The translations under genes and the position numbers were made by a program. This document shows, piece by piece, positions 3,332 to 51,997 of a stretch of DNA of 64,000 nucleotides (positions are counted from its first letter, which is position 1; each line of letters begins with the position of its first letter). The stretch is from positions 2,542,001 through 2,606,000 of the forward strand of contig NZ_CP134049.1 of NCBI RefSeq assembly GCF_031582965.1, given 5' to 3'. The notes beneath the pieces were generated by a model. The model saw only the letters and a list, made by a program, of their open reading frames with translations. It did not search any database and was not told the origin of the DNA. The stretch comes from Bacillus sp. NEB1478. GTDB taxonomy: Bacteria > Bacillota > Bacilli > Bacillales > Fictibacillaceae.

Positions 3332-3463
3332 AATTATGTCTAATTCTAAATAATTAAGTCTCTTCGCTGATGAATTAGGTCTGAATTATTAAAATTAAGT
3401 CTCATTAAAGCAGAATTAAGTCTCATTAAGCAGAATTAAGTCTCATTTTAAATAATTAAGTCT
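3332..3463 (+). repeat. phased array, seven AATTAAGTCT decamers every 20-21 bp
   Basis: Decamers AATTAAGTCT (two with one change: AATTATGTCT and AATTAGGTCT) start at 3332, 3352, 3373, 3393, 3414, 3434 and 3454. The start-to-start distances are 20, 21, 20, 21, 20 and 20. Between decamers the sequence is looser (CATTAA(A)GCAG in the best-conserved units). The spacing equals two helical turns, so all copies face the same side of the DNA. Confidence 0.85.
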
Positions 3464-13571: not shown

Positions 13572-13984
13572 AGTATCAATCACTCCATTTTATGTATTTC
13601 TTACTTCTCGTATTATTCCACAAAATAAAGGCACTTAACCTCTACTTGCAACACTGTCTATTACATTATCGAAAAATCAATAAAAATACAATTATTTTAG
13701 GTATTTTCTCTAATTTACTAAAGGATTTTTATATTAATAACCATTAACCTATAACAAAAATCGGTTGTCCACATATCTTATTAAATTGATGTTTTTAGTT
13801 GAGCCATCATTTTTACTTATTTCCACAGTAATCCCCAATATTCCCACGTTAATTTAGATAATTCCACGCAACTCTAAATTAACCGATTTCCGACAAAAAA
13901 AGACCCAAAAGATTAAAAAATCGTCTTTTAGGTCATCGTCTTTATATTGCAGAATAAAATGGTGTCCATACCACAAATACAAAA
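13572..13984. other. 413-bp AT-rich intergenic region with a phased array
   Basis: No gene seen. The region holds the array at 13804-13893, an imperfect AAAAGA/TCTTTT hairpin at about 13900-13936, and then runs into the composite palindrome that forms the 3' end of degV. Confidence 0.6.
13804..13893 (-). repeat. phased array, CGTGGAATTA-type units every 19-21 bp
   Basis: On the plus strand, CCA(C/T) or CCG cores start at 13804, 13823, 13844, 13864 and 13883. Read on the minus strand the best units are CGTGGAATTATC.AAATTAA and CGTGGGAATATTGGGGATTA. These match the alternating units of the array at 17898-18010 closely, so the two are members of one sequence family in opposite orientation. Confidence 0.75.
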
Positions 13985-17269: not shown

Positions 17270-17827
17270 ATGCATAACGAAACAACAACTACTGCGACAG
17301 CCGAACCTGTTTTTACTCACTCAGATTATCAAACACAAGAAGCAGCGGAGAATAAAGGATCTGGATTTGCTACGGGACTCGTTCTTGGAGGACTAGCCGG
17401 TGCCGCTGCGGCTTTGCTATTAGCTCCGAAGAAAGGAAACGAACTGCGTGAAGACTTGCGCGATTCATCGATTAAGCTAAAAGAACGTACAATGCAAATG
17501 AAAGATGAGACAATGTTAAAAGCAAAACTCGGAAAAATGGATGCTAAAGATGGTGTTGATTCTATGAAAGAAAAATCAACCAATCTATCTGTTTCTGCTC
17601 GCCAGAAACTGCAAGAAGCTAAGAATAAAGCAAGTGAAATGAAGAAGGACACGAAAGATGCTGTAAATGAGGCAAAGGAAGAAGCGAAAAAAGATAACTA
17701 TTCTACGCAATCAACATCAACTTCCTCTAACGGTCTATCAGCAGCTCCCACATCATCAGTTACCGTAACTAAAACAGGAACTGATGAAACAGCGTACGCA
17801 AAAAAACAAAGTGATCTAAACAAATAA
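17270..17827 (+). CDS. YtxH domain general-stress protein
   Basis: 185 residues. A hydrophobic Gly/Ala-rich helix (FATGLVLGGLAGAAAALLLAP, about 35-55) is followed by KKGNELREDLRD, the YtxH signature. A long Lys/Glu/Ala amphipathic helix with LEA-like repeats (about 60-150) and a Ser/Thr-rich tail come next. Likely membrane-attached and stress-protective; the mechanism is not established. A SigB-like promoter sits upstream. Confidence 0.88.
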   Translation: MHNETTTTATAEPVFTHSDYQTQEAAENKGSGFATGLVLGGLAGAAAALLLAPKKGNELREDLRDSSIKLKERTMQMKDETMLKAKLGKMDAKDGVDSMKEKSTNLSVSARQKLQEAKNKASEMKKDTKDAVNEAKEEAKKDNYSTQSTSTSSNGLSAAPTSSVTVTKTGTDETAYAKKQSDLNK

Positions 17828-17836
17828 TCAATAAAT

Positions 17837-17890
17837 AAAAAGAGGATGACCCAAAAGAAGATCCATTAATCGATTGGGTCATTCTTTTTG
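17837..17890 (+). terminator. terminator of the ytxH-type gene
   Basis: ATGACCCAA and TTGGGTCAT pair within a longer imperfect stem, followed by TTCTTTTTG. Confidence 0.8.
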
Positions 17891-17897
17891 TCGAAAA

Positions 17898-18010
17898 ATC
17901 GAATAATTGTGAGTTACGTCGAATTATTGAAATTAGTGTGGATATAATGGTCGTTTCCGTGGAATTATCGAAATTAACGTGGATATAATGGACATTACCG
18001 TGGAATTAAA
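17898..18010 (+). repeat. phased array, GTGGAATTAT / GTGGATATAAT units every 20-21 bp
   Basis: Unit starts at 17898, 17918, 17938, 17959, 17979 and 18000 (distances 20, 20, 21, 20, 21). Units alternate between GTSGAATTAT and GTGGATATAATGG, giving a roughly 41-bp higher-order dimer that occurs twice almost unchanged. It lies between two terminators, so it is probably outside any transcript. Confidence 0.85.
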
Positions 18011-18038
18011 TAATATTGATAGCTTCGAATAACAAAAA

Positions 18039-18085
18039 ACGGCTCAAATAGGTTCATTTATCTATTTGAGTCGTCTCTTTTTTTC
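18039..18085. terminator. bidirectional terminator ending the P-type ATPase gene
   Basis: ACGGCTCAAATAG and CTATTTGAGTCGT pair over 13 positions with one G-T; A-run on one side and CTCTTTTTTT on the other. Confidence 0.85.
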
Positions 18086-18088
18086 TTA

Positions 18089-19957
18089 TTATCTTAATAA
18101 TCGAAGTCCGTTTAATATGACTAATATCGTGCTTCCCTCGTGTCCGACTACACCAAATGGCAGTGTTAGCACTTGAAAGAAATTCGCTCCAAGCAAGAGG
18201 CAAATGACTGAAACGGAAAAAATGATATTTTGCCTGACAATCTTCGAAAGACGTTCAGATAAGTTCATAGCATAGAGCAGTTTACTTAAATCATTTTTAA
18301 CTAGCACTACATTCGCTGTTTCAATTGCAGCATCACTGCCCATTCCCATTGCTACACCTATATCTGCAACAGCTAGAGCTGGAGCATCATTAACTCCGTC
18401 TCCTATCATGGCAACTATCGCTTGTTTATCTTTCCATTTTTTCAGTGTATTGACCTTATCCTCTGGCATACAAGAATAGCCGACCTCATCCACCTTTGCT
18501 AATTTGCCGATCTCCTCTGCTCCGCGTTTCGAATCACCAGTCAGCATTAAAGTTAAAATTTGTTTTTGCTGAAGAGCTTGAATGGCTTCAACACTTTCAT
18601 CACGAACAGAATCTCCAATAAGAAAATAACCTGCCAAAACTTTATCCGCTGTCACATACACAACAGTTTGCGCATTCACATCACCTTCTGCAAACACCTT
18701 AGAAAAAAGCTTTCTCTCTTCTTTATCAGTGATACCTGCAAGCTCACGGCTGCCTACACTCCATCTAATCCCATTCGCTATCGCTTTTACGCCTAAACCA
18801 GGAATATCCTCGTAGTCCGTTAACTCAACTTTATTTTCTTCTGCATTTACTTCCAGGATAGCTAAAATAGCCTTTGCCAATGGATGTGTGCTGTTTTTTT
18901 CAATAGCATATATAACCGGACGGATTTCTTCTTCTTTTAGTGAAGGGTGATTGAATACGGTTGTTTTCACCGTTGGATTTCCTTCAGTCAATGTTCCTGT
19001 TTTATCAAAAGCCATAACGTTTACACTTTTTATTTTTTCTAAGTAAATACCGCTCTTAAATAAAATCCCTTGTTTGGCTGCATTTGAAAGGGAAGCTAGT
19101 AAAGCAGGCATTGTAGAGGCAACAAGTGCACAAGGAGAAGCGACTACAAGCAAAACACATGCACGATAAAGAGATTCCGAATAACTCCAAAAACCAGCAG
19201 AACCGGGAACAATTACGGTTAAAGCTGCAGCCATTAGTACAAAAAGAACATATTTCGCCTCAAATTCTTCTATCTTACGCTGAACAGGAGGAGCTTCGTT
19301 TTGCGCTCTATGAACAAGATCGATCATTCTTTGAAAAACAGAATCTTTCATATACTTCGTCACGATAATTTCTAACAATCCTGATTGATTAAGCGTCCCA
19401 GCAAGCACTTTGGATTCTGGTTTAATTTCTTTTGCTGCAGCCTCACCAGTTAGAGCTGATTCATTTACAAATGAAGATCCCATCTGTACTATGCCGTCTG
19501 CGGGTATCCTTTCACCTGGCCGTACTTTTATCGTATCGCCTGGCTTTAAAGTCGAGGCATTTACCCTGACTTCTTTAGTTCCTGAAATAAGCATTGCTTC
19601 TTCAGGCTGCATGGAAATGAGCGCTTTAATTTCGCGATCGCTTTTTTGCAGTGTGTACATTTCAAGTGCACCAGAATAAGCAAAAATTAAAATGAGTGCA
19701 GCACCTTCTCCCCAGTAACCGATTGAAGCCGAACCAATTGCGGCTATCATCATCAGCAGTTCTACATTTAACCGTTTCTCTTCTAACGTTTGCTGAACGC
19801 CTTCAACCGCTTTCGCGTATCCGCCAAATAAAAAGGCAAGAATATAAAAAAGAACATAGTAAGGAGATTGTGAATATGTTTCCGTTAGCCAGGCTACAAG
19901 TATTAATGCGCCTGAGGTCGTTGCAAGAATAAGCTGTGCACGTGCAGAAAGCTCCAT
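18089..19957 (-). CDS. P1B-4-type heavy-metal exporting ATPase (ZosA/PfeT-like)
   Basis: 622 residues from the ATG at 19957 (MELSARAQ), seven bases past GAGGAGGG. It has the P-type core: TGE loop (SALTGEA), phosphorylation site FDKTGTLTEG, ATP-binding SxHPLA and the hinge GDGVNDAPAL. The membrane metal site is SPC (about 280-282) and the last helices carry HEGST, both diagnostic of P1B-4 transporters. There is no N-terminal heavy-metal-associated domain. Relatives include B. subtilis PfeT (formerly ZosA), an Fe(II) exporter. Substrate Fe/Co/Zn is inferred. I do not see a clear PerR box upstream, but there is a structured leader. Confidence 0.9.
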   Translation of the reverse strand: MELSARAQLILATTSGALILVAWLTETYSQSPYYVLFYILAFLFGGYAKAVEGVQQTLEEKRLNVELLMMIAAIGSASIGYWGEGAALILIFAYSGALEMYTLQKSDREIKALISMQPEEAMLISGTKEVRVNASTLKPGDTIKVRPGERIPADGIVQMGSSFVNESALTGEAAAKEIKPESKVLAGTLNQSGLLEIIVTKYMKDSVFQRMIDLVHRAQNEAPPVQRKIEEFEAKYVLFVLMAAALTVIVPGSAGFWSYSESLYRACVLLVVASPCALVASTMPALLASLSNAAKQGILFKSGIYLEKIKSVNVMAFDKTGTLTEGNPTVKTTVFNHPSLKEEEIRPVIYAIEKNSTHPLAKAILAILEVNAEENKVELTDYEDIPGLGVKAIANGIRWSVGSRELAGITDKEERKLFSKVFAEGDVNAQTVVYVTADKVLAGYFLIGDSVRDESVEAIQALQQKQILTLMLTGDSKRGAEEIGKLAKVDEVGYSCMPEDKVNTLKKWKDKQAIVAMIGDGVNDAPALAVADIGVAMGMGSDAAIETANVVLVKNDLSKLLYAMNLSERLSKIVRQNIIFSVSVICLLLGANFFQVLTLPFGVVGHEGSTILVILNGLRLLR

Positions 19958-20017
19958 CCGTATTCCCTCCTCATCGCTTCCTGAGAATAACAATCATCCT
20001 CAATACCCATATAAAAG

Positions 20018-26189: not shown

Positions 26190-26440
26190 CTATGCACTCC
26201 TAAAGTGTAAATAAAAAAGCCCTGCTCATCATTAGGGACCAAAATTTGGCGGTACCACCCTAATTCAAAGCAAAGCTTTACACTCTTTCATGATAACGGT
26301 TTTGAACCGCTGTTATCTTCTCGTTGATCAGATACAGAACTCAAAGGCAGGTTCGATTGGCAGTCAGTAGGAACTTTTCAGCATTTAGCTCCCTCTCTGG
26401 AAAAGACAAACACAACGTACTAATCCTCATCCATGTTTCG
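26190..26440 (-). promoter_or_regulatory. T-box leader of proS, specifier CCU (Pro)
   Basis: On the minus strand the leader starts with GATTAGTACG at about 26420. It continues through stem I with GAACCTGCCTTTGAGTT, where CCT is the predicted specifier. The hallmark AGGGTGGTACCGCC (about 26230-26245) follows and pairs as antiterminator (ATTAGGG with TCCCTAAT). The run AGGGCTTTTTTATT is the competing terminator. Uncharged tRNA-Pro would bind and allow proS expression. Confidence 0.93.
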
Positions 26441-26627
26441 ATTGTTGTTTTTGAAAATTATATAGAGTTTGGCATGATCTGTCAATTATTGATTTTGATA
26501 AGCTTCGAATCTCTTCGTCATCTTTGTTCTTACGGTACTCACGTATATACGCTCCAATCCTCAGAACTTTGCTTCCTCGACCTTCTCGCTTCTGAAAAAT
26601 CAATTTAATTTTTGAAAATTTCAAGGT

Positions 26628-28118: not shown

Positions 28119-28199
28119 TAATAGATTTGAATATATTTTCTATATATACATTGAAGTTGTCCTCAAGTAGATGTCTAATTTTGTCGGATGATGTCATCT

Positions 28200-28294
28200 C
28201 GGGGATATATCGCCATTTTCCGTTGAATTATTGTAAAAATCCGTTGAATTATAGAGCTTTCTCGTGAGATTATTGCAGAAATTCGTTAGATTAT
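28200..28294 (+). repeat. phased array, CGTTGAATTAT units every 21 bp
   Basis: Unit starts at 28200 (CGGGGATATAT), 28221 (CGTTGAATTAT), 28242 (CGTTGAATTAT), 28263 (CGTGAGATTAT) and 28284 (CGTTAGATTAT): four successive distances of exactly 21. The bases between units are AT-rich and poorly conserved. Confidence 0.85.
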
Positions 28295-28492: not shown

Positions 28493-28552
28493 GGGGTGTG
28501 CACCCCACAAATACAAATCTGGTGATTTGTATTTTTAGGGGGTCAGACCCCC
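28493..28552. repeat. composite palindrome element, copy 2
   Basis: Three parts in a row: GGGGTG/CACCCC hairpin (28493-28506), ACAAATACAAATC paired with GATTTGTATTT (28507-28534), and GGGGGTCAGACCCCC (28538-28552). The last part ends ten bases from the isomerase stop codon. Confidence 0.85.
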
Positions 28553-28562
28553 TCCTTTTGTA

Positions 28563-42736: not shown

Positions 42737-42905
42737 AACAAAAAACCACCCGCAACAGTCAGCGGGTGGCAGTTAAAGTTATATCCGAGCTACAAATATC
42801 CTTTAGGTTCCACGCCGCTTCCCTACGCCAGAATTATCCGGATCAGGTTCAAAGGGTCAAAGGAAATTTCCTTCTCTCAGCTCAAAACCGTGAGCACCCC
42901 TAGCG
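42737..42905 (-). promoter_or_regulatory. TPP riboswitch with terminator
   Basis: The minus strand shows the thi-box aptamer (about 42904-42806): GGGGTGCTCACGG, AGCTGAGA, then GACCCTTTGAACCTGATC...GGCGTAGGGAAGCG. A CCACCCGC/GCGGGTGG terminator with a T-run (42769-42737) follows, 40 bases before thiD. Transcription-termination control by thiamine pyrophosphate is expected. Confidence 0.97.
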
Positions 42906-42931
42906 AAAAATGTTTATATTGATTTATATCA

Positions 42932-51792: not shown

Positions 51793-51814
51793 TGTTTATT
51801 TGAGACAGAATTAT

Positions 51815-51903
51815 TTCCACACTTATTTTGATATTTACACAAAAATTGATATTAATTCCATGTAAATGGACTTCAATACCACATTAATGCCCAAGAAAAC
51901 CAC
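51815..51903 (-). repeat. phased array, GTGGAA-type units every 20-21 bp
   Basis: Plus-strand TTCCAC, TTACAC, TTCCAT, TACCAC and AACCAC start at 51815, 51835, 51856, 51877 and 51898 (distances 20, 21, 21, 21). Read on the minus strand these are the same G-T-G-G starts as in the arrays at 13804 and 17898, but the rest of each unit has diverged. Confidence 0.7.
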
Positions 51904-51945
51904 GACTCGACAATCTTTGACAAGCTTACGATGCAACTGTCTTAC

Positions 51946-51991
51946 TGACAAATACAAATCCTCGATTTGTATTTGTCAGGGGTCTGTCCCC
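51946..51991. repeat. composite palindrome element, copy 3
   Basis: TGACAAATACAAATC (51946-51960) and GATTTGTATTTGTCA (51964-51978) are a perfect 15-bp inverted repeat, followed immediately by GGGGTCTGTCCCC (51979-51991). It ends six bases from the stop of the MazG-like gene and can terminate it. Confidence 0.88.
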
Positions 51992-51997
51992 CCACGC

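Follow-up and report, generated by a model that had tools for sequence, protein, structure and literature searches.

The genome of Bacillus sp. NEB1478 is a single contig of 3.93 Mb, and the window, that is the whole stretch of 64,000 nucleotides analysed here, corresponds to its positions 2542001-2606000. The focal array is located between two convergent genes, the ORFs at 17270-17827 (+) and 18089-19993 (-), and the intervening DNA contains, in order, a hairpin, a leader, five direct-repeat units (17917-18018), a short tail and a second hairpin (Table 1). The unit cores are spaced by 20, 21, 20 and 21 bp. Analysis with TRF returned a period of 41 (2.2 copies, score 135) and a period of 21 (3.2 copies, score 78), and the unit-chain score of the array was 84.8 against a threshold of 18. 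An earlier note on this DNA had listed six unit starts. Those at 17918, 17938, 17959, 17979 and 18000 were recovered, whereas the one at 17898 (ATCGAATAATT) is better read as leader. The same note placed the array between two terminators, and this description holds: a consensus terminator scanner detected the right hairpin and missed the left one, but both fold beyond their shuffled counterparts.

Table 1. Features of the focal locus and other elements of the window (positions are those of the window).
Feature	Position	Strand	Remarks
Left hairpin/terminator (GATGACCCAAAAG..)	17840..17888		RNA fold -19.8 kcal/mol, z -4.2
Leader	17889..17916	+	TGTCG at 17889-17893, at -28 from first unit core (17917)
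Unit 1 (CGTCGAATTA..)	17917..17936	+	20 bp
Unit 2 (TGTGGATATA..)	17937..17957	+	21 bp
Unit 3 (CGTGGAATTA..)	17958..17977	+	20 bp
Unit 4 (CGTGGATATA..)	17978..17998	+	21 bp
Unit 5 (CGTGGAATTAAATAA..)	17999..18018	+	Last unit
A-type tail (ATAGCTTC..)	18019..18038	+	Short at the focal locus
Right hairpin/terminator (GGCTCAAAT..ATTTGAGTC)	18039..18074		z -8.9, consensus scanner
Array of a different family (AATTAAGTCTCATTAAGCAG unit; AGACTTAATT-type on - strand)	3332..3463	-	Period 20
A-type CGTGG array	13807..13873	-	3 units; genome 2555807-2555873
Degenerate array (CGTTGAATTA-type)	28195..28283	+	21 bp; leader TGTCGGATGATGTCATCT
Degenerate CGTGG array	51801..51909	-	5 units; leader ending TGTCGAGT
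T-box leader	26231-26442	-	Rfam gathering match
TPP riboswitch	42803-42911	-	Rfam gathering match
GGGGTCTGACCCC-like palindrome	28520-28560; 51960-51995		Near gene ends

Copies that have the leader, array, tail and hairpins of this locus in common are referred to as A-type. Sequences resembling the left hairpin were also seen next to further A-type arrays (at about 959k, 1152k, 2270k and 2488k of the genome), and in many of the other copies a longer stretch separates the array from the next hairpin. Four further arrays had been proposed in the window, near 3332, 13804, 28200 and 51815. All four exist, and the last three are of the CGTGG type or decayed forms of it, but the unit of the array at 3332 is unrelated. 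The leader of this array is TTCGAAATTTGTAGAAAGACT, and a sister copy at genome position 2096992 has TGTCGAATTTTGTAGGAAGACT. The window also contains a T-box leader, a TPP riboswitch and a dispersed palindrome near gene ends (Table 1); the palindrome was seen again at about 195.6k, 3473k and 3589k of the genome, followed there by CAATTTATTTCCCTT. A search of 50,697 phage and 72,556 plasmid records with the focal array gave no match, and a phage or plasmid origin of the piece was discarded.

The focal array was next considered as RNA. Its folding is weaker than that of shuffled sequence whichever strand is taken (z +1.8 and +1.3), and no Rfam family covers it, in line with the earlier view that this is not an mRNA element. 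An element acting at the RNA level, be it an sRNA, a sponge or a protein-binding transcript, would account for repeats that are polar and flanked by terminators; given the poor folding, the lack of an Rfam family and a 20/21-nt lock that RNA does not need, such an element is extremely improbable. A period of 20-21 bp cannot serve translation either, and a coding repeat was rejected since neither 20 nor 41 bp is a multiple of 3.

The abundance of such arrays was quantified with a unit-chain scan (score of at least 18) of 1,504,020 bases of the NEB1478 genome. The scan returned 59 CGTGG-type arrays, while the same scan returned none in the reversed sequence and one in the complemented sequence; the scanned bases were partly collected around blastn matches, and four contiguous regions (1.25 Mb) account for 32 of the 59 arrays. 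The focal array itself gave 42 blastn matches in the genome, counting itself, with identities of 74-100%, and the pattern CGTGGN{14,17}CGTGG occurred 132 times against 17 for its reversed control. The elements thus form a genome-wide class beyond chance, as had been suggested. CGTGG pairs on the same strand were found 58 times at 20 bp and 57 times at 21 bp, and once each at 19 and 22 bp. Pairs on opposite strands averaged 0.5 per distance, with no paired inverted units. This lock is indicative of units that all lie on one face of the DNA, again as proposed. Among the spacings of the 59 arrays, 108 were 21 bp, 78 were 20 bp and two were 22 bp. The sums of two successive steps (n = 129) were mostly 41 (72), but also 42 (35), 40 (19) and 43 (3), so the alternation of 20 and 21 is common without being strict. 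The commonest array size was five units (28 of 59).

The period was also assayed independently of any unit sequence, by scoring self-similarity at fixed lags of 12-44 in 558 intergenic regions of NEB1478 (191 kb). Twelve loci were detected at lag 20 and 24 at lag 21, none of the remaining lags between 12 and 39 had more than two, and the signals at lags 40-42 were doubles of 20-21. Markov controls gave at most 0.2 per lag. Note that two loci scored at lag 21 are not arrays, one being an Ala-rich ORF (257763) and the other a divergent region (70987); they are included in the totals of 12 and 24 and were left out of the placement and GC-recurrence counts given below. In 935 coding ORFs of NEB1478 every lag was a multiple of 3 apart from one at 35, with none at 20, and no repetition was found by the lag test in 55 intergenic regions of E. 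coli (150 kb).

Inspection by eye of the loci from the lag test showed about ten unit dialects beneath this one period, at least four of them without visible resemblance to one another. The dialects CGTGGAATTA, CTCGTTGGATTATG, CTCGGTGGATTAT, GTCTGGAATTA, CGCGAGATTA and TGGTAGGATT may in part be mutual relatives, and a CGTG.A core is common to several dialects. The pair AGACTTAATT and AGACTCAATT (the kind to which the array at 3332 belongs), TATGGCGCGCTTATTTTCCG and TTTTTGTTTGATT show no visible likeness to these six. The GC-rich family with the 20-bp unit TATGGCGCGCTTATTTTCCG was observed at 3636277, 3402934 and 235650, one copy lying just downstream of an rrn operon. The period and the architecture are therefore shared throughout; unit sequences are alike inside each family and differ between families. 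The GTGGAATTA core that the earlier note took as the defining feature cannot be retained as such, as unit sequences vary between arrays within the genome and across species. For the same reason, it is unlikely that all arrays are bound by a single protein with strict sequence specificity.

Base composition within the CGTGG units was then examined. In 20-bp units, positions 5-10 and 14-19 have a GC content of 0-9%, and in 21-bp units positions 5-10 and 16-19 have 0-14%, the AT blocks thus occupying both halves of the unit. At positions 6, 7 and 16 within the AT stretches A and T are about equally frequent, and this near-equality at GC-poor positions suggests reading through the minor groove on one face. 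Recurrence of GC at a lag of 10-11 within units was weak (permutation p of 0.04, 0.007 and 0.08 for 7, 24 and 20 arrays). The alternation of AT-rich blocks with GC-containing ones could also point to intrinsically curved DNA that acts without a specific protein. However, a wedge model predicted no excess of curvature over dinucleotide shuffles (32 arrays; mean z 0.2, median -0.2). Phased A-tract curvature was rejected on this result, and curvature alone is a highly improbable explanation.

The arrays are polar, with a leader of one-turn TGTCG steps running into the two-turn units. Of the 59 arrays, 31 have TGTCG in the 70 bp ahead of the first unit and four have it downstream, compared with 3.3% of random intergenic 70-mers. 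Its positions clustered at -29 to -27 (nine cases), -18 (11) and -8 (19), approximately one helical turn apart. Two hairpins were considered as possible ends of the element: GACTCAAA and GACCCAAA have an array no more than 350 bp away in seven of 12 and one of two cases, respectively, with one more at 432 bp. Both also occur away from arrays, which weakens them as element ends.

Placement relative to genes was determined with both detectors combined, using ORFs defined by a simple longest-ORF rule. An array was present in 50 of the 558 intergenic regions (1.25 Mb), namely in 24 of 86 convergent (28%), 22 of 353 tandem (6%) and four of 119 divergent regions (3%). Convergent regions are over-represented (they supply 24 of the 50 regions with an array but 15.4% of the intergenic bases; p = 6e-8) and divergent regions are under-represented (p = 0.01). 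Extrapolation would give about 150 array regions in the whole genome. The arrays are dispersed over many loci, and neighbours differ in length and strand. Any bias of orientation with respect to replication was weak at best in a hand count. Six rrn operons were seen, and in five of these an array follows at no more than about 1 kb past a motif close to the 3' end of the 23S gene, the array belonging to another dialect in one case; four of the six lie in pieces first collected for array matches, and at three rrn ends a lag of 22 or 23 scores as well. The sixth operon leads into a cluster of 14 tRNA genes, and the end of this operon was not reached.

This distribution bears on two rival explanations. 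In the first, the arrays would be gyrase or topoisomerase sites comparable to enterobacterial BIME-2, relieving positive supercoils downstream of busy operons. The positions behind rrn operons and between convergent genes would suit this role, as would the length of about 130 bp covered by the leader and five units; predicted curvature is not raised, however, and the cores are conserved beyond the needs of a wrapper that reads shape, which leaves this explanation distinctly unlikely. In the second, each unit family would be the operator array of an ordinary sequence-specific regulator, for example a LytTR-type protein on direct repeats with a two-turn step, or a DnaA-like factor. The CGTG.A core shared by several dialects and two LytTR-domain matches in the genome speak for such regulators, but promoter-side (divergent) regions are avoided (3% against 28% of convergent regions) and the unit types outnumber the two LytTR proteins found. 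As regards DnaA, the consensus of the DnaA box is TTATNCACA and CGTGGATAA resembles its reverse; the box nevertheless needs A where the CGTGG units have G, and a DnaA box cluster was discarded as the reversed CGTGG units end in CCACG and not in CACA. Operators are, on balance, an unlikely explanation.

A role as a segregation site had also been raised. Beyond the geometry nothing was found in its favour. Arrays are sparser at 1.80-2.14 Mb of NEB1478, a region which contains a dif-like match with several mismatches and holds five array regions in 340 kb, compared with 19 and 21 per approximately 420 kb elsewhere, but inspection by eye of the CGTGG matches listed for the relative G005 showed no gap of this kind.

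The occurrence of the arrays in relatives was then studied. A related dialect was found in 42 stretches of sequence records, 35 from Fictibacillus and seven scattered singletons. The lag test was applied to ten 80-kb blocks at arbitrary positions in other genomes of the order, several of these genomes having been picked for pattern matches, and lag 20 or 21 was detected in seven of the ten blocks (23 counts), all other lags up to 39 giving four counts. The positive blocks come from three Fictibacillus genomes, two of the same family and two of another family, and different units again share the 20-21-bp period in them. The blocks of G380, G039 and G042 showed no arrays, although G380 has one elsewhere. 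Of 397 genomes of the order, 23 had matches to a generalised core pattern, and these 23 fall into 11 of the 135 genera. Fictibacillus accounted for nine of the 23, with zero control matches in these genomes. Outside Fictibacillus there were 57 matches in 14 genomes compared with 28 reversed-control matches in 12 genomes, an excess of about twofold, and with half as many control matches the core pattern alone is weak evidence there. By eye, several other families clearly have arrays, whereas the matches of G169 and G198 do not form arrays, and in G017 CGTGG pairs were no more frequent than in the control (3 against 25). The presence of arrays in relatives is thus supported. Neither outcome that the earlier note gave as refuting its reading was observed, namely arrays of equal score in shuffled sequence or a lack of arrays in the rest of the genome and its relatives. 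Two other observations were made in these genomes. Loci L014 and L031 of G024, from another genus of the family, have CGTGCATATATCGAAATTAT arrays after a hairpin-like stretch, GGGGTGTCCC..GGGGCATCC, and in G003, G001 and G008 the CGTGG pair pattern also caught a palindromic CGTGGAATCTACAGATTCCACG-like motif that is distinct from the arrays.

At the focal locus itself, a CGTGG-type array was present in none of 15 readable orthologous loci, G012 being left out for a contig break and G017 also being left out, and the unit-chain score was at most 11.2 (threshold 18). In G014, G009 and G016 the lag-21 scores at this locus were 11.6-12.8, under the threshold of 16. Most relatives have a short bidirectional terminator in place of the array, and NEB1478 differs from them across the whole terminator region; no very close relative with an empty site was among them. 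The focal cassette was therefore probably gained in the lineage of NEB1478. Arrays at other loci are older than this one. Six orthologous groups of loci from Fictibacillus species (class II) were aligned; they were partly ascertained, having been chosen by a pattern of one unit pair and grouped by eye from shared flanks. In these groups the share of comparisons with a difference is 2% for CGTGGAT, 35% for the spacer and 0-13% for the leader TGTCG, and for the flank that precedes the leader it is mostly 40-73%.

The fate of individual positions was followed in 63 orthologous slots, comparing NEB1478 with the 80-kb blocks of three relatives. Both genomes had an array in six slots, only the relative in nine, only NEB1478 in six and neither in 42 (p = 0.028); the six NEB1478-only slots were partly inspected and one NEB1478 slot was counted with two relatives. 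Before correction the counts were 8, 7, 6 and 42 (p = 0.0024), and the change results from moving two coding repeats (257764, Ala-rich, and 215827, acidic) to the class without an array in NEB1478. Control lags gave 0 of 63. Where both genomes have an array, their units are not the same, some being related dialects (for example CTCGCGGGATTATG against CTCGGTGGATTATG) and others without resemblance. A strict count in contiguous NEB1478 regions gave four of 11 slots shared, with two more holding another dialect, and orientation agreed in two of the four strictly shared slots. A looser count, which found an NEB1478 array within 1.2 kb at 24 of 47 loci (65 tested), is biased because many NEB1478 pieces were collected around its arrays. 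Persistence of the slot with turnover of the code, supported rather than proven by these comparisons, would be the most unusual property of the arrays.

The main rival explanation, to be weighed here, is that the arrays are mobile or selfish interspersed repeats of the BOX or STAR kind, terminator-array-terminator cassettes that were copied wherever insertion downstream of genes was tolerated. The period would in that case stem from the copying mechanism or from the binding geometry of a transposition protein, without any host function. The focal array does look new, given its absence from the 15 orthologous loci, and the A-type copies share modules and remain 74-100% identical in blastn. BOX, RUP, SPRITE and IS elements are likewise described as over-represented between convergent pneumococcal genes, an enrichment interpreted there as a possible sign of parasitic mobility (PMC3049150). 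Mobility alone, however, does not readily provide for one period beneath about ten dialects, at least four of them unrelated by eye, for orthologous slots that tend to remain occupied by different units, or for constrained cores that adjoin free spacers. We regard this explanation as less likely than not.

By description, the arrays are interspersed intergenic repeats whose nearest kinds are STAR and BOX, both of which fail on period and core. STAR elements of Staphylococcus are similar in that direct repeats between genes combine a conserved core with locus-specific spacers and vary in copy number. The arrays here fall into many families, whereas the account consulted describes a single STAR unit family with loci differing per species, a 14-bp GC-rich core, T(G/A/T)TGTTG(G/T)GGCCC(C/A), spacers no shorter than 40 bp, units of approximately 50 nt and a function reported as unknown, and it mentions no helical lock (PMC3532100). 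With units of 20-21 bp that lack the STAR core, the arrays were not assigned to STAR. The boxB units of BOX are about 45 bp long. BOX of Streptococcus pneumoniae is described as a composite of boxA, a boxB array of variable number and boxC, with predicted RNA folding and enrichment between convergent genes (PMC3049150). The arrays here consist only of direct repeats with a period of 20-21 bp and fold below chance as RNA, and BOX was rejected by description.

Other multicopy repeats were compared in the same way. REP/BIME elements of enterobacteria are also multicopy and extragenic, are placed at transcription-unit ends and are bound by gyrase or IHF. They are, however, described as palindromic repeats of 20-40 bp, and they were rejected on the lack of opposite-strand CGTGG pairing, the flanking hairpins here looking like terminators. 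CRISPR arrays have near-identical longer repeats with unique spacers of similar length and were rejected too, since the whole unit is 20-21 bp and both its core and its AT-biased spacer are degenerate. The repeat of parC from pSK41 is 20 bp long. The parC and tubC arrays of plasmids are likewise tandem direct repeats and are bound by an oligomerising protein, but such a centromere is described beside a par operon, while the arrays here occupy many dispersed loci and have no linked gene known (PMC5016525). In Beggiatoaceae, most TAACTGA repeats are described as preceding a start codon (PMC4679880). Many arrays of the present kind would be missed by a published survey of satellites in prokaryotes which, as far as its method is described, asked for four copies of a decamer (PMC6749651). 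The literature searched, that is outside subscription journals and in the parts available, yielded no description of such arrays, and within this scope the earlier suggestion of an undescribed class stands.

The most likely interpretation of these data, to which we give a probability of about 0.5, is that the arrays are phased platforms for a cooperative, sequence-tolerant protein that binds or wraps DNA at the 3' ends of genes. A protein oligomerising along or around the DNA with a two-turn step would explain the phase, the number of units and the tolerance of sequence. The element would consist of a polar TGTCG leader followed by, usually, four to six direct repeats two helical turns apart, often between terminators at gene 3' ends. 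Nucleation would take place at the leader, and the resulting oligomer would grip one face of the DNA or wrap it, so that a local nucleoprotein structure may form where transcription units end and act as a structural or topological insulator. The phase lock, the polarity, the bias towards gene ends, the different units under one period and the lack of RNA structure in the focal array come from the computations, whereas protein binding, wrapping and insulation are what we infer.

The best named candidate for the binder is RemA, although this identification is rather unlikely to be correct. In the published description RemA forms an octameric ring, has a LytTR-related fold and binds repetitive DNA of low conservation; its homodimer resembles the DNA-binding domain of AgrA, four DNA pieces fit one ring, and arginines 50, 51 and 53 are tied to DNA binding (PMC8481266). 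Its footprint in B. subtilis comprises periodic AT-rich protections of 7 bp with 3-bp gaps, for which wrapping around the ring was proposed (PMC8481266). NEB1478 encodes a RemA protein (PF04025, 2240832-2241050, 123.6 bits) that aligns over 72 residues with the solved Geobacillus ring protein and retains R50, R51 and R53. A second gene of the RemA family (PF04025) was observed at 3926563-3926784 (47.1 bits). In a control search RemA was also found in B. subtilis, Synechococcus and Thermotoga, and its presence therefore says little. Furthermore, the known RemA sites are described as activating regions upstream of promoters (PMC8481266), whereas the arrays here lie mostly at gene ends, have a period of 20-21 bp and show cores that are conserved inside each family. 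A near-constant protein does not easily explain the conservation of CGTGG within a family together with its complete change between families.

A more far-reaching form of the platform reading, which we put forward tentatively, is that the arrays are phase-coded wrapping sites in which geometry is selected, the unit code turns over and the slot persists, with approximately 100-200 per genome. They might then be a bacterial counterpart of sequence-tolerant nucleosome positioning, marking and insulating the ends of transcription units across the order, a proposal that we hold with similar reserve. Protein p6 of phage phi29, described as reading bendability at a fixed 24-bp step, is a precedent (PMC10899789). 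If confirmed, a reading defined by period and free of code would be categorically new.

If the platform reading is true, these bacteria would have a class of intergenic element that is defined by its period and tends to escape motif and repeat searches. It would point to an unrecognised DNA-organising protein, or to a new role of RemA, where transcription units end, and the topological marking of bacterial gene ends would become testable by phase-shift constructs.
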